DNA of 61,293 bases from Salinivenus iranica (GTDB lineage: Bacteria > Bacteroidota > Rhodothermia > Rhodothermales > Salinibacteraceae). A program made the translations under genes and the position numbers. Below the pieces are notes generated by a model, which worked only from the letters and a program-made list of their open reading frames with translations, did no database searches and was not told where the DNA came from. Positions 7,322 to 13,761 of the stretch are shown here, in pieces; the stretch's first letter is position 1, and each line of letters starts with the position of its first letter. Location: the NCBI GenBank assembly GCA_002894665.1, contig NCRB01000011.1, positions 1 through 61,293 of the forward strand, given 5' to 3'.

Positions 7322-7355
7322 AAAAAAGGCCGACCCGCCGGATGGCGAATCGGCC
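7322..7355 (-). terminator. Rho-independent terminator of the 69-residue Cys protein gene
   Basis: On the minus strand a stem GGCCGA/TCGGCC (7350-7355 with 7328-7333) encloses a second stem CGCC/GGCG around GGAT, and is followed by six T (the A-run at 7322-7327). It lies 27 bases past the stop of the minus-strand gene at 7382. Confidence 0.85.
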
Positions 7356-7381
7356 CGAAAGGCGCAGTATGGAGAACGAAC

Positions 7382-7591
7382 TCAGGCGACGACTTCGGCC
7401 TGCTCCTCAGGGACCGGCATGGCTTCGAAGCGCACGCCCTGGTCGCCCGGATACGGCTCGTGGTGGTCGTGTTGATTGCGCCAGATCTCCTCCGGAATGC
7501 CCTCGGGGAAGGCCTCGCAGACGGCCTCCTCGTCCCGATTCCGGTCGAGATGCTGGCAGGACTTGCACATCGGCTCGATGTCGTGGGCCAT
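7382..7591 (-). CDS. Small Cys-rich conserved protein
   Basis: A 69-residue soluble protein with C-x2-C near the N terminus (MCKSCQHL), a third cysteine at AVCEAFP, and the pattern [10 protein letters not shown] followed by a His-rich DHHEP and PGDQGVRFE. This arrangement recurs in small bacterial and phage proteins of unknown function; three Cys and clustered His suggest metal or Fe-S binding. It has its own terminator and is preceded by a palindrome at 7679-7697 that matches a second one in front of the divergent gene at 7836. That pairing suggests iron or metal control, which is an inference. Confidence 0.8.
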
Positions 7592-7678
7592 GGTGTGGAG
7601 GCTGGGTTGTGTACAGGGAGAGGAGTCAGGGGAAAGATCCGAACAGAGCGGGCAGGCCGGAGATCCGCCGCGGCCAAT

Positions 7679-7697
7679 ATTTAGAGGCAGTCTAAAT
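7679..7697. promoter_or_regulatory. Palindromic operator A (Irr/Fur-like)
   Basis: ATTTAGAG-GCA-GTCTAAAT, a 19-bp inverted repeat with a single mismatch and a 3-base spacer, 82 bases upstream of the Cys-protein start at 7591. The geometry resembles the rhizobial iron control element bound by Irr (TTTAGAA-N3-TTCTAAA), but the inner bases differ. Confidence 0.7.
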
Positions 7698-7788
7698 CCG
7701 TGAGAAGATCTGCCCTGCGCGCCGATTTTCGGGGAGATCGGCCGGGATTTCGTAGGAGTGAGTTGCGCGAATCCACTGACGTGGTTTA

Positions 7789-7805
7789 TTTAGACTCTGT
7801 CTAAA
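7789..7805. promoter_or_regulatory. Palindromic operator B (Irr/Fur-like)
   Basis: TTTAGAC-TCT-GTCTAAA, a perfect 7-3-7 inverted repeat 30 bases upstream of the plus-strand start at 7836. It matches operator A in 13 of 14 arm bases, so both probably bind the same dimeric regulator. Confidence 0.75.
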
Positions 7806-7835: not shown

Positions 7836-8117
7836 ATGTGTCTGGCCGAATTCAAGAAAGAGGCGCCCGTCGACTTTGAAGTACGGGAGCGTCCGGGACA
7901 GCACGACTACAAGTACTGTCTCTGTGGCAAGGGGTGCACGCTGGGGGTGCTGTTTGAAACGTCGACCCGCGTGTGCTTCGAGTGGCTCACGGAGAACGGT
8001 CGCGCGGTGGAGTACCGGCCGGAGCTCCGGTACAAGGCGTGGGCGAAGCGGGAGGTGGCGCGTCTTGTGGCGGAGGGGTGGTGGACCCCGGTAGACGCAG
8101 ACGGAATTGCGGCGTAG
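7836..8117 (+). CDS. Small hypothetical protein with CxCxxxC motif
   Basis: A 93-residue protein that I do not recognise. It has an N-terminal Cys (MCLAEF), a CLCGKGC cluster around residues 28-34 and one further Cys (RVCFEW); the second half is helical and charged. Four of the five Cys lie in the first third, which fits metal or redox binding. It is divergent from the 69-residue Cys protein, with two matching palindromes between them, and convergent with the FAD oxidoreductase (gap of 10 bases). The operator directly upstream supports that it is a real gene. Confidence 0.65.
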   Translation: MCLAEFKKEAPVDFEVRERPGQHDYKYCLCGKGCTLGVLFETSTRVCFEWLTENGRAVEYRPELRYKAWAKREVARLVAEGWWTPVDADGIAA

Positions 8118-8127
8118 GCGGGAGCCA

Positions 8128-9348
8128 TCAGGCCCCGGTTTCGATTGCAGCTTCCGCGCCAAACTGCTCGCGCCAGGACGTCGTGCCCCACCGGTCCGGG
8201 GCATACGGCCGCATCCAGCGGCGGTCGACCCCGTGCTTCAGCCGAAGGAGCCATGGATGGGCGGCCCACATCGATCCGGCCGTCCAGAGCCCGTCCGCTG
8301 TGCCGGTCGACAGGATGAGGGGCGTGAGGGGGTACGGGCGAAACGTCTGCAGGTCGGTAGGGGACGGCACACCGGCCCCTGCGCCGAGGGCCTGGAGCGT
8401 GTGATGGAGGTTGGCGCGGAGGGTGGGGCCCTGCTTCACGGCGTGTACGCCCACCCGGGCGAGGTCGAGGTCCTCAATCGAGGCGCAGTCGCCCGCGGCG
8501 AAGAGGCGGGGATGCGCGCGGACCTGCAGCGAGCGGGTCGTTCGGACGAATCCGCGATCGTTGGTTGGGAGGGGACTGTCGTGCAGGAGGGGCGGGCCGA
8601 CCGTGCCGGTGGCCCAGAGCACAGCATCCGCCGCAAGAGGAGAGGCGGTGTCGGTGTAGACGGCGGCGGGGGCGTCGTCCGTGCCCTCGACGTTTGTGAC
8701 GGTGGTGCCGGTAGAGACGGTGGCGCCGCGCCGGCGGAGCCGGTTGGTCGCATCGGTGCGCAGGCCGGCGGGAAAGCCGGGCAGGAGCCGATCGGCCTGT
8801 TCGACGATTGTCAGCTCCAGGTCCTCGAGCCGGTCGGCCCCGGCAAAGCGCCCCGTCACGTTCAGCGCCACCTCGGTGCCGGCGGCGCCGCCCCCCACCA
8901 CGACGAGGCGGAGCCGGGCAGTTGCCTCGGCGAGCGTCTGTTCAATGCGCGAGGCCAGGGGGCGAATGTGGGCAATGGGCTTGGTGGGGATGGCGTCCGC
9001 GGGCACCGCCGGGTTGGCACTCCCCACGTTGATTGCCAGCACGTCGAACGGAAGGGCGTCCCCGGCTTGCGTCTCGACCACGCGGGCGTCCGGATCGATC
9101 GCCGCGGCGGCCTCTTGCACGAACGATGCCCCGTTTGCGCGGGCCTGGGCCGCCAGATCAATCCGCACGTCTGCTTCGTCGTACACACCGCCCAGGTACT
9201 CGGGGACCATGCCGGAGTAGTAGAGGTGGCGCTGAGGGTCGACCAGGGTCACGTCAATGCCCCTTTGCGTCCACGTGTCGGCGTGGACGAGGCTGGGAAG
9301 CATGGCGTGTCCGCCTCCGAGCAAGACGAGACGAAGAGAACGATCCAT
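8128..9348 (-). CDS. NAD(P)/FAD-dependent oxidoreductase (NDH-2-like)
   Basis: A 406-residue two-dinucleotide-binding flavoprotein. The FAD Rossmann motif is at the N terminus (LVLLGGGHAML), a second Rossmann motif for NAD(P)H lies near the middle (LVVVGGGAAGTEVALN), and the late FAD motif is LFAAGDCASIEDL. It resembles type II NADH dehydrogenases and the flavoprotein part of SelD-fused oxidoreductases (for example in HYYSGMVPEYL-like sequence near residue 45) more than sulfide:quinone oxidoreductases, since no paired catalytic cysteines are visible. Its start faces the YeeE gene across a 144-base gap with a palindrome, so the two may share control. Electron acceptor is probably quinone, by family. 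Confidence 0.8.
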   Translation of the reverse strand: MDRSLRLVLLGGGHAMLPSLVHADTWTQRGIDVTLVDPQRHLYYSGMVPEYLGGVYDEADVRIDLAAQARANGASFVQEAAAAIDPDARVVETQAGDALPFDVLAINVGSANPAVPADAIPTKPIAHIRPLASRIEQTLAEATARLRLVVVGGGAAGTEVALNVTGRFAGADRLEDLELTIVEQADRLLPGFPAGLRTDATNRLRRRGATVSTGTTVTNVEGTDDAPAAVYTDTASPLAADAVLWATGTVGPPLLHDSPLPTNDRGFVRTTRSLQVRAHPRLFAAGDCASIEDLDLARVGVHAVKQGPTLRANLHHTLQALGAGAGVPSPTDLQTFRPYPLTPLILSTGTADGLWTAGSMWAAHPWLLRLKHGVDRRWMRPYAPDRWGTTSWREQFGAEAAIETGA

Positions 9349-9463
9349 AAGAGAGGGCAGGGCAAGAAGCGAATCCCGAAAATACGGACGGGCACTGCAG
9401 CCCGGACGAGCACGCCCGGGAACCTTCCGTCAAAAGGGGAATATCCTGGGGTGGCTCCACGCT

Positions 9464-9473
9464 TGTTATAACA
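9464..9473. promoter_or_regulatory. TGTTATAACA palindrome (site 1)
   Basis: A perfect 10-bp palindrome, extended to CTTGTTATAACATG at 9462-9475, ending 19 bases before the YeeE start codon. The same core with the same left flank (CTTGTTATAACA) occurs at 38291-38300, also just upstream of a start. Likely operator of an unidentified dimeric regulator. Confidence 0.65.
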
Positions 9474-9492
9474 TGAAACATCAAGTGTTCGA

Positions 9493-10053
9493 ATGGGTGA
9501 TCTTCTGCTCTCGTCCTGGCCGTGGTACATTGCCGGTCCTCTCATTGGACTCTTCGTGCCCCTGCTTTTGCTGCTGACCGGCAAGGCCTTCGGGGTATCG
9601 TCGAGCCTGAAGCACGCTTGTGCGGCCACGGTGCCGGGACGGGCCGAGTACTTTCGGTACGACTGGAAAGCGTCCGGGTTGTGGAACCTGTTGTTTGTCA
9701 TCGGCATCCTCCTCGGCGGCGTGGTGGCGGTGCAGCTGTTGGGCGGGGGCGGGCCCACGGGCATTTCCTCCGCCACGAAGGCCGACCTGCAGGCACTGGG
9801 CTTGACGGAGTTTTCGGGGCTGGTGCCTCCAGAGCTGTTTAGCTGGTCGAGCCTCACGACGGGGCCCGGCTTTGTGGCCATCGTGCTCGGGGGCTTTCTG
9901 GTTGGGTTTGGGGCACGCTACGCGGGGGGCTGTACCTCGGGGCACGCCATTACGGGCCTCGCAACGCTCCAGTGGCCGTCCCTGCTGGCGGTCGTCGGCT
10001 TCTTCATCGGCGGACTGCTCACGACCTACGGGCTGCTTCCGCTGCTGCTGTAG
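9493..10053 (+). CDS. YeeE/YedE family sulfur/thiosulfate transporter, first half
   Basis: A 186-residue membrane protein with about four or five transmembrane segments. The signature [13 protein letters not shown] near residue 140 carries the Cys that lines the thiosulfate path in YeeE-type transporters. Length corresponds to half of a full YeeE; the second half is the next gene. Role by family: uptake of thiosulfate or movement of sulfane sulfur across the membrane. It is first in a plus-strand run with persulfide dioxygenase and TauE, and has an operator-like palindrome just upstream. Confidence 0.9.
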
Positions 10054-10107
10054 TTGTCTTCCCCGGGCCGCTCACGCATCACGAATCGAACCTCCGTCTT
10101 GAGTCCC

Positions 10108-10581
10108 ATGGCTTCTCCCCGTACGTCCACCCATTCCTCCGAAACGCGCCCGGGCCTCCGCCTGGCCGATGCCCTGATCTATCTGGGCATGGGGACGATC
10201 TTCGGCATCCTCCTCGTCAAGAGCGAGGTGGTGTCGTGGTTTCGGATTCAGGAGATGTTTCGATTCCAGGCGTTTCACATGAACGGCATCATCGGCAGCG
10301 CCGTGGTGGTGGCGGGCGCCTCCATTGCGCTCCTGCGGCGCATACAGGCCACCACGATTCGGGGCGAGCCGATCTCGATCTCGGATAAGCCCTTTGAGCG
10401 CGGCGTCAACCAGATCGTTGGAGGCATTGCCTTCGGTCTGGGCTGGGGCCTGCTCGGGGCGTGCCCGGGGCCCATCTACGCCCTCATCGGTGCGGGCGTG
10501 ACGCCGGTGGCGGTCGCGCTCCTCAGTGCCATGCTGGGGGCCTGGACGTACGGACACCTAAAGCCGTATTTGCCACACTGA
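10108..10581 (+). CDS. YeeE/YedE family sulfur/thiosulfate transporter, second half (DUF6691)
   Basis: I place the start at ATG 10108; a longer frame opens at a TTG at 10054 with unlikely sequence. The 157-residue product has about four transmembrane segments and the signature GLLGACPGPIYALIGAG, the second conserved Cys motif of the YeeE fold. Together with the gene 54 bases upstream it would form the two halves of one transporter. Such split pairs are commonly found beside persulfide dioxygenase genes, as here. Confidence 0.9.
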   Translation: MASPRTSTHSSETRPGLRLADALIYLGMGTIFGILLVKSEVVSWFRIQEMFRFQAFHMNGIIGSAVVVAGASIALLRRIQATTIRGEPISISDKPFERGVNQIVGGIAFGLGWGLLGACPGPIYALIGAGVTPVAVALLSAMLGAWTYGHLKPYLPH

Positions 10582-10726
10582 CTGATGCGTGAGAAGTGAT
10601 CTGTGCGGGTGCGTTCAATCAAGACGCTCGTGCATCACTCTTCACAGACTGAAATTCGCTCCCGCGCACCGCACGCTGTTTCCTTCCCCTCATTCCCTGG
10701 CCTCTTACCAAAAAACTCTTTCCCCT

Positions 10727-12184
10727 ATGCTCTTCCGACAGATCTTCGACGAGAAGCTTGCCCAGTATGCCTACCTCGTAGGCTGTCAACAGACGGGCGA
10801 GGCCCTGCTCGTCGACCCCGAACGTGACATCGACCAGTATCTCGAGTTTGCCGAGGACGAAGGAGTGGAGATTACGGCGGTCGCCGAAACCCACATCCAC
10901 GCCGATTTCTTGTCCGGTGCCCGCGAATTTGCCGAGCGCTTCGACACGTCGCTGTACCTCTCGGACGAGGGGGGGGAGAACTGGAAGTACGAGTGGGCCC
11001 GCGAACCGAAACAAAGCGGGGGCGACTACGACGTGACCTGGCTCCGGGACGGCGACACGTTTGCGATTGGCAACATCAAGATTACGGCGCTCCACACGCC
11101 CGGCCACACGCCGGAGCACCTGTCCTTTCTCGTGACGGATATGGGCGGCGGGGCCAACGAGCCGATGGGCCTCCTCACGGGCGACTTCGTGTTCGTGGGC
11201 GACCTCGGCCGGCCCGACCTCCTGGAGTCCGCCGCCCAGGTGGAGGGGGCGATGGAGCCCTCGGCCCGTGCGCTTTACCAGTCCGTCCAGCGCTTCCTGG
11301 AGATGCCGGATCACCTGCAGGTGTGGCCGGGGCACGGGGCCGGCTCATCCTGCGGCAAAGCCCTCGGGGCGGTGCCGCAGACGACGGTCGGCTACGAGAA
11401 ACAGTTCAACCCGATGATTCAGGCGGCGCGTGAGGGCGAGGACGCGTTCGTGGACGCCATCGTGGCCGGGCAGCCGGAGCCGCAGATGTACTTTGCCCGC
11501 ATGAAGCGAGACAACAAGGGCGGGCCGCCGGTGCTGGGCGATCTGCCATCGCCGCGGGAGCTTACGACCCACGAGCTCCGGGAGGTCGCCGCGGATGAGG
11601 AGACGCTCCTGATTGACACGCGCCTGGACCGCTCGGCCTTTATGGCGCACCACATTCCGGGCAGCCTCTACGCGCCGATGAACAAGACCTTCAATACGGT
11701 GGTGGGCTCCCTCGTCGAGGAGGAGACGACGCCGATCGTGCTCCTGGTCGACGAGGCGGACGTGGAGACGGCTGTTCGCGACCTCGTGCGCATCGGATAC
11801 GACCACGTGGTCGGCATTGCGACCTCCGACACGCTGCAGCGCTACTTTCTGAATGACGGGCCGAGCGCATCGATCGATGAGATCGCGTTCAATGAGGTGG
11901 AGGCCCTGCGGCAGGAGCCGAACACGACGGTCGTCGACGTGCGCTACCGGTCGGAGTACGAGGAGGACGGACACGTGGAGGGGGCGCTGAATGCGTCCTA
12001 CACGCGGCTTCCAGAGTACGAGGCCGACCTCCCGAAAGATCAGACCCTGTTGGTGCACTGCGCGAGTGGGGCGCGGGCGGCGGCGGCCTCGGCGTTTCTG
12101 GCCCGCACCGGTCGTACGGTTAAGTACGTGAACGACGCCTTTGGGAACTACGACGTGGCGACGGATGAAGCCGTCGCGGCGTAG
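10727..12184 (+). CDS. Persulfide dioxygenase-rhodanese fusion (MBL fold plus two rhodanese domains)
   Basis: Start at ATG 10727; the open frame reaches upstream but without protein character. The 485-residue protein begins with a metallo-beta-lactamase domain of the ETHE1 type (about residues 1-250): THIHADFLSG gives the HxHxD iron site, then HTPGHTPEHLS and GDFVFVGDLGRPDL. Two rhodanese domains follow. The first (about 270-360) has no catalytic Cys: the loop reads IVLLVDEADVE. The second (about 370-480) has C445 in LVHCASGARA and should be active. Reaction by family: glutathione or other persulfide plus oxygen gives sulfite; the rhodanese transfers sulfane sulfur. It lies between the YeeE pair and a sulfite exporter. 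Confidence 0.92.
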   Translation: MLFRQIFDEKLAQYAYLVGCQQTGEALLVDPERDIDQYLEFAEDEGVEITAVAETHIHADFLSGAREFAERFDTSLYLSDEGGENWKYEWAREPKQSGGDYDVTWLRDGDTFAIGNIKITALHTPGHTPEHLSFLVTDMGGGANEPMGLLTGDFVFVGDLGRPDLLESAAQVEGAMEPSARALYQSVQRFLEMPDHLQVWPGHGAGSSCGKALGAVPQTTVGYEKQFNPMIQAAREGEDAFVDAIVAGQPEPQMYFARMKRDNKGGPPVLGDLPSPRELTTHELREVAADEETLLIDTRLDRSAFMAHHIPGSLYAPMNKTFNTVVGSLVEEETTPIVLLVDEADVETAVRDLVRIGYDHVVGIATSDTLQRYFLNDGPSASIDEIAFNEVEALRQEPNTTVVDVRYRSEYEEDGHVEGALNASYTRLPEYEADLPKDQTLLVHCASGARAAAASAFLARTGRTVKYVNDAFGNYDVATDEAVAA

Positions 12185-12249
12185 CCGGTGCAATTGCGTC
12201 TCGCCGAGCCCCAGCCTTCTCTCCTCGCTCGTCCAACGCCCCCCGCTCC

Positions 12250-13014
12250 ATGTACGCTGCCTGGCTTGGTGCCCTGCTTGTCGGGCTCGTCCTCGGCCTT
12301 CTCGGGTCCGGCGGCTCCATTCTAACGGTGCCGGTGCTGGTGTACCTGGTGGGGGAGCCCAGCAAGCTCGCCATCGCCGAGTCGCTCGGCATCGTGGCCC
12401 TCATCAGTCTGGTGGGGGCCGTGCCGTTTGCGGTGCAGGGACAGGTGAGCTGGCGGAGCGTGGGCTGGTTTGGCGGGCCGGGGATTGTGGGGGCGTACCT
12501 GGGGGCCTATCTGTCGCAGTTCATGCCGGGGGCGCTCCAGCTCACCATCTTTGCAGGGGTGATGCTGCTGGCGGCCGTCATGATGTTTCGCCGCAGCTCC
12601 CCGACGGCGACCGGCGGCCCCGACCGCGTCTTCTGGAAAGTGATGATGGATGGGTTTGGCGTAGGGGTGCTGACCGGCATCGTGGGGGTCGGCGGGGGCT
12701 TTCTAATTGTCCCCGCGCTCGTGTTGCTTTGCGGCCTGTCGATGCACCTGGCCATTGGGACGAGCCTCCTGATCATTGCCGTGAAGAGCATTGCCGGCTT
12801 TGTGAAGTACATTGACGTGATGGAGGCCGCGGGCCTCTCCATTCACTGGGACCTGGTTCTGATTTTCTCCGCCATCGGCATTGTCGGGAGCGTGATTGGG
12901 GGGCGGGTGGGAGCCTACGTCCCGCAGGCACGTCTGAAGCGCGGCTTTGCCGTCTTCCTGGTGCTGATGGGGATTGTCATTCTCGTACAAAACGTCGTCG
13001 AGATCGCGGGATAG
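12250..13014 (+). CDS. TauE/SafE family sulfite exporter-like permease
   Basis: A 254-residue membrane protein with about eight hydrophobic segments. The duplicated TauE/SafE motif is seen as [17 protein letters not shown] near the N terminus and [18 protein letters not shown] near residue 145. By family it exports sulfite, sulfoacetate or similar anions. Directly after a persulfide dioxygenase gene (65-base gap), the likely cargo is the sulfite that enzyme makes; this is inferred from context. Confidence 0.9.
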
Positions 13015-13107
13015 CAGCGGCGAGGACCGGGAAAGCAGGTCCGGATGCAGGCGTCTCTGTAAAGCGTGAATGAAGGAGAAACCCCACGGCCCGCCGGTGG
13101 TCAAACA

Positions 13108-13131
13108 TTGTGAGTGAGCGTTCACTCACAA
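13108..13131. promoter_or_regulatory. Perfect 24-bp TetR-type operator
   Basis: Arms TTGTGAGTGA and TCACTCACAA flank a 4-base centre GCGT, 66 bases upstream of the TetR-family start. The TGAGTGA core is typical of AcrR-like TetR operators. Autoregulation, and control of the efflux genes downstream, is likely. Confidence 0.85.
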
Positions 13132-13197
13132 CGAGGTGGCCGCCCACTTTCGCCGTCAAGTGCCTCTGCGACGTTTTCTTCCTCAGATCCCCGACGG

Positions 13198-13761
13198 ATG
13201 ACCAAGCGAGACGCCATCTGCGACGCCGCGCTCGATCTGTTTGCCGAGCAAGGCATCGAAAATACAACCATTCGCGAAATTGCGGCGCGGGCCGACGCGT
13301 CTGAAGGGGCGCTCTACCGGCATTTTGACGGCAAGGCCGACCTGGCGTCCTGGCTCCACGATCGATGTGCGACCGAGCTGCGGGAGCGGCTGGCGACGGC
13401 CACCGAGGATGCTCCCTCGCCGGCGGCGCACCTGGAGGCGCTGGTGCGGGGGCTGTTTGCCTTCTATGCCTCGCGCCCCGCGTCGTGCACGTACCTGCTG
13501 TCGGCAAACGAAGGTGGGAACGATGCCGACCCGTCCGCTCCGGTCCAGTACTTTGCGGAGGCCCTGCGGGCGGCCCCGAGCGGGGACGGCGGGCCCTCCG
13601 CTACGCTCCGGGCCGGGTGGATTCTGGCCATGGTGCAGCGCACGGTCCGCTTCTTGAAGGCCGGCACGCTGGACGTGGTGGACCGGACGGCCATCGACCA
13701 GACGGTGGCGGCGGCCCTGCGCCTTGCCGGCCTGGAGGGGACGACGAGCGTCACGCCCTGA
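13198..13761 (+). CDS. TetR/AcrR family transcriptional regulator
   Basis: Start at ATG 13198 (MTKRDAICDAALDLFAEQG), because an upstream extension would run through the operator. The 187-residue protein has a TetR N-terminal helix-turn-helix (about residues 5-60; TTIREIAARADASEGALYRHF) and a variable ligand-binding C-terminal domain. The perfect palindrome at 13108-13131 lies before it, and TolC, MFP and RND genes follow on the same strand, so it is probably the local repressor of that tripartite pump. The ligand is unknown. Confidence 0.93.
   Translation: MTKRDAICDAALDLFAEQGIENTTIREIAARADASEGALYRHFDGKADLASWLHDRCATELRERLATATEDAPSPAAHLEALVRGLFAFYASRPASCTYLLSANEGGNDADPSAPVQYFAEALRAAPSGDGGPSATLRAGWILAMVQRTVRFLKAGTLDVVDRTAIDQTVAAALRLAGLEGTTSVTP

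Follow-up and report, generated by a model that had tools for sequence, protein, structure and literature searches.

Conserved palindromes between two divergent small-protein genes as candidate operators of an iron regulon in the Rhodothermales

The Irr box or ICE consensus of alphaproteobacteria has the half-site TTTAGA, followed by A or T at the next base. Fur regulons, in turn, often contain small proteins that are transcribed as single-gene operons. The E. coli Fur box has the consensus GATAATGATAATCATTATC, the canonical type being GATAAT, and the consensus of the DtxR operator is TTAGGTTAGCCTAACCTAA (PMC7762939). The one studied Bacteroidota Fur that was found is that of P. gingivalis, which does not bind to the E. 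coli Fur box (PMC6613475), and open-access searches returned no paper on an iron box for Salinibacter, Rhodothermus or Rhodothermales. As no order-specific box was found in the literature and P. gingivalis Fur ignores the E. coli box, the clean 17-bp operator and the list of targets described here make the iron response of the order directly testable.

The window analyzed, 61,293 nucleotides from Salinivenus iranica, contains a 244-base gap between a 69-codon ORF on the minus strand (P1) and a 93-codon ORF on the plus strand (P2), with one palindrome for each gene (Table 1). The boxes, their conservation and their sharing with iron genes were computed, as were the presence of a Fur gene and the conservation of the pair. 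We consider it probable, as judged from sequence comparisons, that the palindromes are operators of an iron regulon of the Salinibacter/Rhodothermus order which are most probably bound by Fur and act on P1 and P2 as proposed below.

Table 1. Features of the divergent locus, positions in the window
Feature	Position	Strand	Remarks
Terminator-like hairpin, intrinsic type	7327..7356	-	13 pairs, 9 G-C, T tail; between P1 and downstream TonB receptor
P1, 69-aa protein	7382..7591	-	ORF; invariant C9, C12, C25, H43
GGATC element	7662..7666	-	13 nt after P1 box, fixed spacing; P1 promoters only
P1 box, iron (Fur-type), predicted	7680..7696	-	88 nt 5' of P1 ATG; TTTAGACTGCCTCTAAA read towards P1
P2 box, iron (Fur-type), predicted	7789..7805	+	30 nt 5' of P2 ATG; TTTAGACTCTGTCTAAA
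P2, 93-aa protein	7836..8117	+	ORF; predicted SH3-like small beta-barrel; C34 in GKGC

The boxes and the genes that share them

An earlier note on this DNA had described two 7-3-7 palindromes, one per divergent gene, and both are indeed present, TTTAGAGGCAGTCTAAA at 7680-7696 and TTTAGACTCTGTCTAAA at 7789-7805. They were the sole matches when up to 3 of the 14 specified bases were allowed to mismatch in a scan of the window, whereas the shuffled window gave a mean of 0.23 matches and reached two matches in 3 of 100 shuffles. For the genome scans, IUPAC patterns with mismatches and a reversed control were used. The exact core TTTAGA-N5-TCTAAA occurs three times in the 3.4-Mb genome against 0.003 expected under a dinucleotide model, so the palindrome is not scattered at random, a possibility that the earlier note had raised. 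Two of these three exact cores lie inside the gap, the expectation there being about 2e-7 per 244 bp, and seven sites were found in the genome when one mismatch to the core was allowed, compared to two for the reversed control.

Nor is the box limited to the source species, as the 27 genomes of the family contain 74 exact cores and no match to the reversed control. Homologs of P2 were found in 25 of 60 relatives and homologs of P1 in 26, one of them marginal; the 25 that remain without it are all of the order, and the concern that the small ORFs might not be conserved in close relatives can thus be dismissed. All 25 P2 loci carry a box 16-54 nt 5' of the start codon. If a match at 11 or more of the 14 bases is taken as clear, 22 of the 25 P1 loci have such a box on their P1 side, the others being borderline (G056), weak (G057) or without a box (G033). 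The divergent pair and the two boxes remain together while the neighbouring genes vary between genera, and the P2 protein of G001 is identical to that of the window. Among genomes of the Rhodothermus family searched for both proteins, G028, G042 and G052 contain P2 with its box and no P1. Within the genus of the source species, three genomes (G005, G006, G012) have neither protein, yet they carry boxes at other genes; the pair is therefore dispensable.

The other genes carrying the box point to iron. The box is located directly 5' of the gene for an FbpA-type ferric-binding protein in seven genomes (G000, G003, G016, G037, G013, G014, G019), and this protein is related to the solved iron-binding protein of an iron ABC transporter (3wae/4elo, E 3e-87). 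Genes for TonB-dependent receptors and for the PF10634 Fe2+ transport protein lie directly 3' of the box in several genera, and a box is also found 5' of the alpha subunit of a 2-oxoacid:ferredoxin oxidoreductase in G000, G003, G016 and G019 (L086:2833, L090:3193, L246:2069, L258:2109). Since the box is common to ferric-binding, TonB, Fe2+-transport and Fe-S oxidoreductase genes, the box-bearing gene set is, by its predicted functions, an iron regulon. Concerning the suggestion of a metal- or redox-responsive pair, the metal part holds for iron by way of the co-regulated genes, whereas no redox response was found. Iron regulation of the pair is well supported in silico.

Genes for small proteins of 108-135 aa also adjoin the box in several genera (L087:3087-3461, L091:3425-3787, L096:3577-3984, L247:1725-2051, L253:1589-1981). 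A Pfam scan of three of them (L087, L096, L247) gave no match, and they may be regarded as further candidate iron-starvation proteins. The 2-oxoacid:ferredoxin oxidoreductase, an Fe-S enzyme, is an unusual member of a Fur-type regulon.

The inner bases of the box differ between the pair and the remaining genes. In iron-gene boxes outside the pair, TTTAGA is followed by A or T in about 80% of half-sites, by C in about 20% and by G in none of 92. In P1 boxes both inner positions are occupied by C or G, 13 of 16 having C at 7 and 11, a C/G pattern seen at none of 46 other sites, although the orthologous boxes in these counts are not independent samples; P2 boxes mostly have C...G. C/G inner bases had previously been taken as a general feature of the box, which has to be abandoned, as A/T predominates there at the other sites of these genomes. 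Such G/C inner bases at P1 and P2, compared to A/T elsewhere, possibly reflect a second factor or a different affinity.

The GGATC element was found at its position after the P1 box, free of gaps, in 20 of 22 aligned P1 leaders, and a pattern search of 260 loci for this arrangement returned P1 loci only. A hairpin in the RNA leader was rejected as the reason for its conservation; RNAalifold found no consensus pair and Rfam nothing near threshold.

The two small proteins

In the alignment, the four invariant residues of P1 are kept in all members of the order. Relatives with the same C, C, C, H were found on plasmids of a desulfovibrio and of a methanogen, in a Brevibacillus phage and an Aeromonas record, and in a Bipolaricaulota MAG as well as in other Bacteroidota. 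Among phage families, phrog_33375 (function unassigned) is matched by P1 (E 6.7e-8), and C-x2-C, C-x-A-[FY]-P and IP with the following His are conserved between P1 and proteins of this type. As the four residues are kept in distant relatives, P1 likely carries a candidate C3H metal site of the zinc type. No iron box was present within 350 bp of the P1 relatives outside the order that were read in frame (all but L266 and L269). Pfam and NCBIfam hold no family for P1, a PDB sequence search gave no match, and its structure model is poor (pLDDT 61).

P2 was detected in 15 of the 395 genomes of a sample of the phylum, all of them of this order. C34 is its single invariant Cys, so that the Cys clusters formerly ascribed to both proteins stand for P1 and not for P2. 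The confident AlphaFold2 model of P2 (pLDDT 91.7, pTM 0.82) is a small barrel with weak similarity to SH3-like domains of the PDB by VIA-align, the best match being the N-terminal domain of TnsB (Z 5.9), with FeoA at Z 2.9. Foldseek returned no match for the model at E 0.001 or better, a PDB sequence search gave none, and there is no family for P2 in Pfam or NCBIfam. From the model, P2 is predicted to be a small SH3-like barrel. The ESSS match (E 0.087) that appeared in the scans of P1 and P2 for named families was discarded as noise.

Both genes look monocistronic, judged by their surroundings, because a terminator-like hairpin follows P1 and the gene 3' of P2 is convergent. This hairpin is well placed, 26 nt past the P1 stop, although one such hairpin compares to 0.9 expected in shuffles. 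We considered and rejected a joint transcript of P1 and the TonB receptor that follows it, as the hairpin lies between them and the receptor adjoins P1 in 5 of 22 loci only. Beside P2, positions 8128-13761 contain a sulfur-metabolism-like cluster with a TIGR03169-type oxidoreductase, a split YeeE/YedE transporter, an MBL-fold/rhodanese protein and a TauE permease; among the loci compared, it adjoins the pair in G000 and G001 only.

The regulator and the proposed mechanism

The genome encodes a single protein of the FUR family (PF01475), which scores 93 bits with the NCBIfam Fur model (below the cut-off of 146) and 36 bits with the Irr model (cut-off 170), and which matches Fur proteins of the PDB (E 7e-25). 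By these scores it is a classical Fur and not an Irr. In our reading of the alignment its recognition helix is ATVYNTL, compared to ATVYRVL in Fur of the E. coli type; we take ATVYNTL to be a form of Irr as well, which would suit an Irr-like box. FUR proteins were found in 43 of 43 high-quality relatives. Of the former description as an Irr/Fur-like box, the Fur-family part stands, while Irr is left with the resemblance of the box.

One DtxR-family protein is encoded as well, scoring 209 bits with the MntR model and 104 bits with that of the iron-dependent DtxR. DtxR was not detected in 4 of the 43 high-quality relatives, three of which have exact boxes: G005 (94% complete) with four and Fur present, G015 (98% complete) with Fur present, and G044 with two. 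Because FUR is universal in the high-quality relatives and the DtxR protein is MntR-like and escaped detection in some box-bearing genomes, the genome's only Fur is the likely reader of the boxes.

How Fur binds, in which direction it regulates and what the two proteins do is inferred as follows. When iron is plentiful, Fe2+-loaded Fur would sit on each box near the gene start and block transcription of P1 and P2. When iron is scarce, Fur would leave and both proteins would be produced along with the ferric-iron ABC transporter, the TonB receptors and the other members. In iron-limited growth the two would most likely help as small proteins, P1 by binding metal (C3H, zinc-type) and P2 as an SH3-like protein of the adaptor type. 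The pair is conserved and probably represents a Fur-repressed iron-limitation module, and two uncharacterized families of small proteins gain a condition in which to seek their function. We would go further only tentatively, namely that the pair is an unrecognized iron-starvation module of the Rhodothermales made of a phage/plasmid-type C3H microprotein and an order-specific SH3-like partner, with an operator class of its own (G/C inner bases and GGATC) that Fur with a partner or a second regulator would read unlike that of the uptake genes.

Against Fur as the reader, the box is unlike the canonical Fur consensus. The Fe-S oxidoreductase, too, is not a usual holo-Fur-repressed gene. The DtxR/MntR-family protein might bind the box in its place, the regulon then being under Mn or Fe control through DtxR. 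TTAG/CTAA ends occur in DtxR operators also (PMC7762939), the one gene for such a protein is there, G019 has a box between its DtxR gene and a TonB receptor, and G015, in which DtxR was not detected, has degenerate boxes at the pair. However, DtxR escapes detection in all three box-bearing genomes named above, whereas FUR is in every high-quality genome; the protein is MntR-like, yet the regulon contains iron-uptake genes; and the box is spaced by N5, compared to N4 in the DtxR core. We regard this explanation as unlikely. The arrangement in G019 (L241:2379), where the MntR/DtxR-family gene and the receptor are divergent, also raises the possibility that the two metal regulators are linked.

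It is quite unlikely, in our estimate, that two regulators share the work, with Fur at the uptake genes, whose boxes have A/T inner bases, and a different factor, or Fur with a partner that reads GGATC, at the pair, whose boxes have G/C inner bases. The inner-base pattern confined to P1 boxes, the C...G preference of P2 boxes and the exact spacing of GGATC in the P1 leaders would agree with such a division, but the 12 core bases and the spacing are the same in both classes of box, C also occurs in some half-sites of the other class, and the orthologous boxes, again, do not count as independent samples. That the palindromes arose by chance over two ORFs specific to the lineage and regulate nothing is scarcely credible and is contradicted by the conserved footprints: next to no copies are expected in the gap, the boxes are kept at fixed places in 25 relatives, and they are enriched 5' of iron genes. 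Fur repression is the reading that we prefer.

Comparison with known systems

The locus resembles a Fur regulon in that one classical Fur is encoded and a box lies near the start of iron-uptake genes. Unlike the overlapping 7-1-7 arrangement of the GATAAT type, however, the sites here are TTTAGA-N5-TCTAAA and do not match the canonical box, and unlike the usual Fur regulon this one counts the Fe-S oxidoreductase and two small proteins outside any Pfam family among its members.

With the Irr box or ICE, the boxes share the half-site TTTAGA and the 5-base spacing to TCTAAA, as well as A/T at the next base in most half-sites outside the pair, whereas the boxes of the pair have C/G inner bases. 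The Irr system differs further, as this genome contains no Irr-type protein and the targets here are uptake genes. The TTAG...CTAA ends are shared with the operators of DtxR, IdeR and MntR, but the spacing of the box is different, and the DtxR-family protein is MntR-like and was not detected in some box-bearing genomes. Finally, in contrast to the phrog_33375 relatives outside the order that were checked, which are without a box, P1 has one, and it also has a partner, P2, that is restricted to the order.
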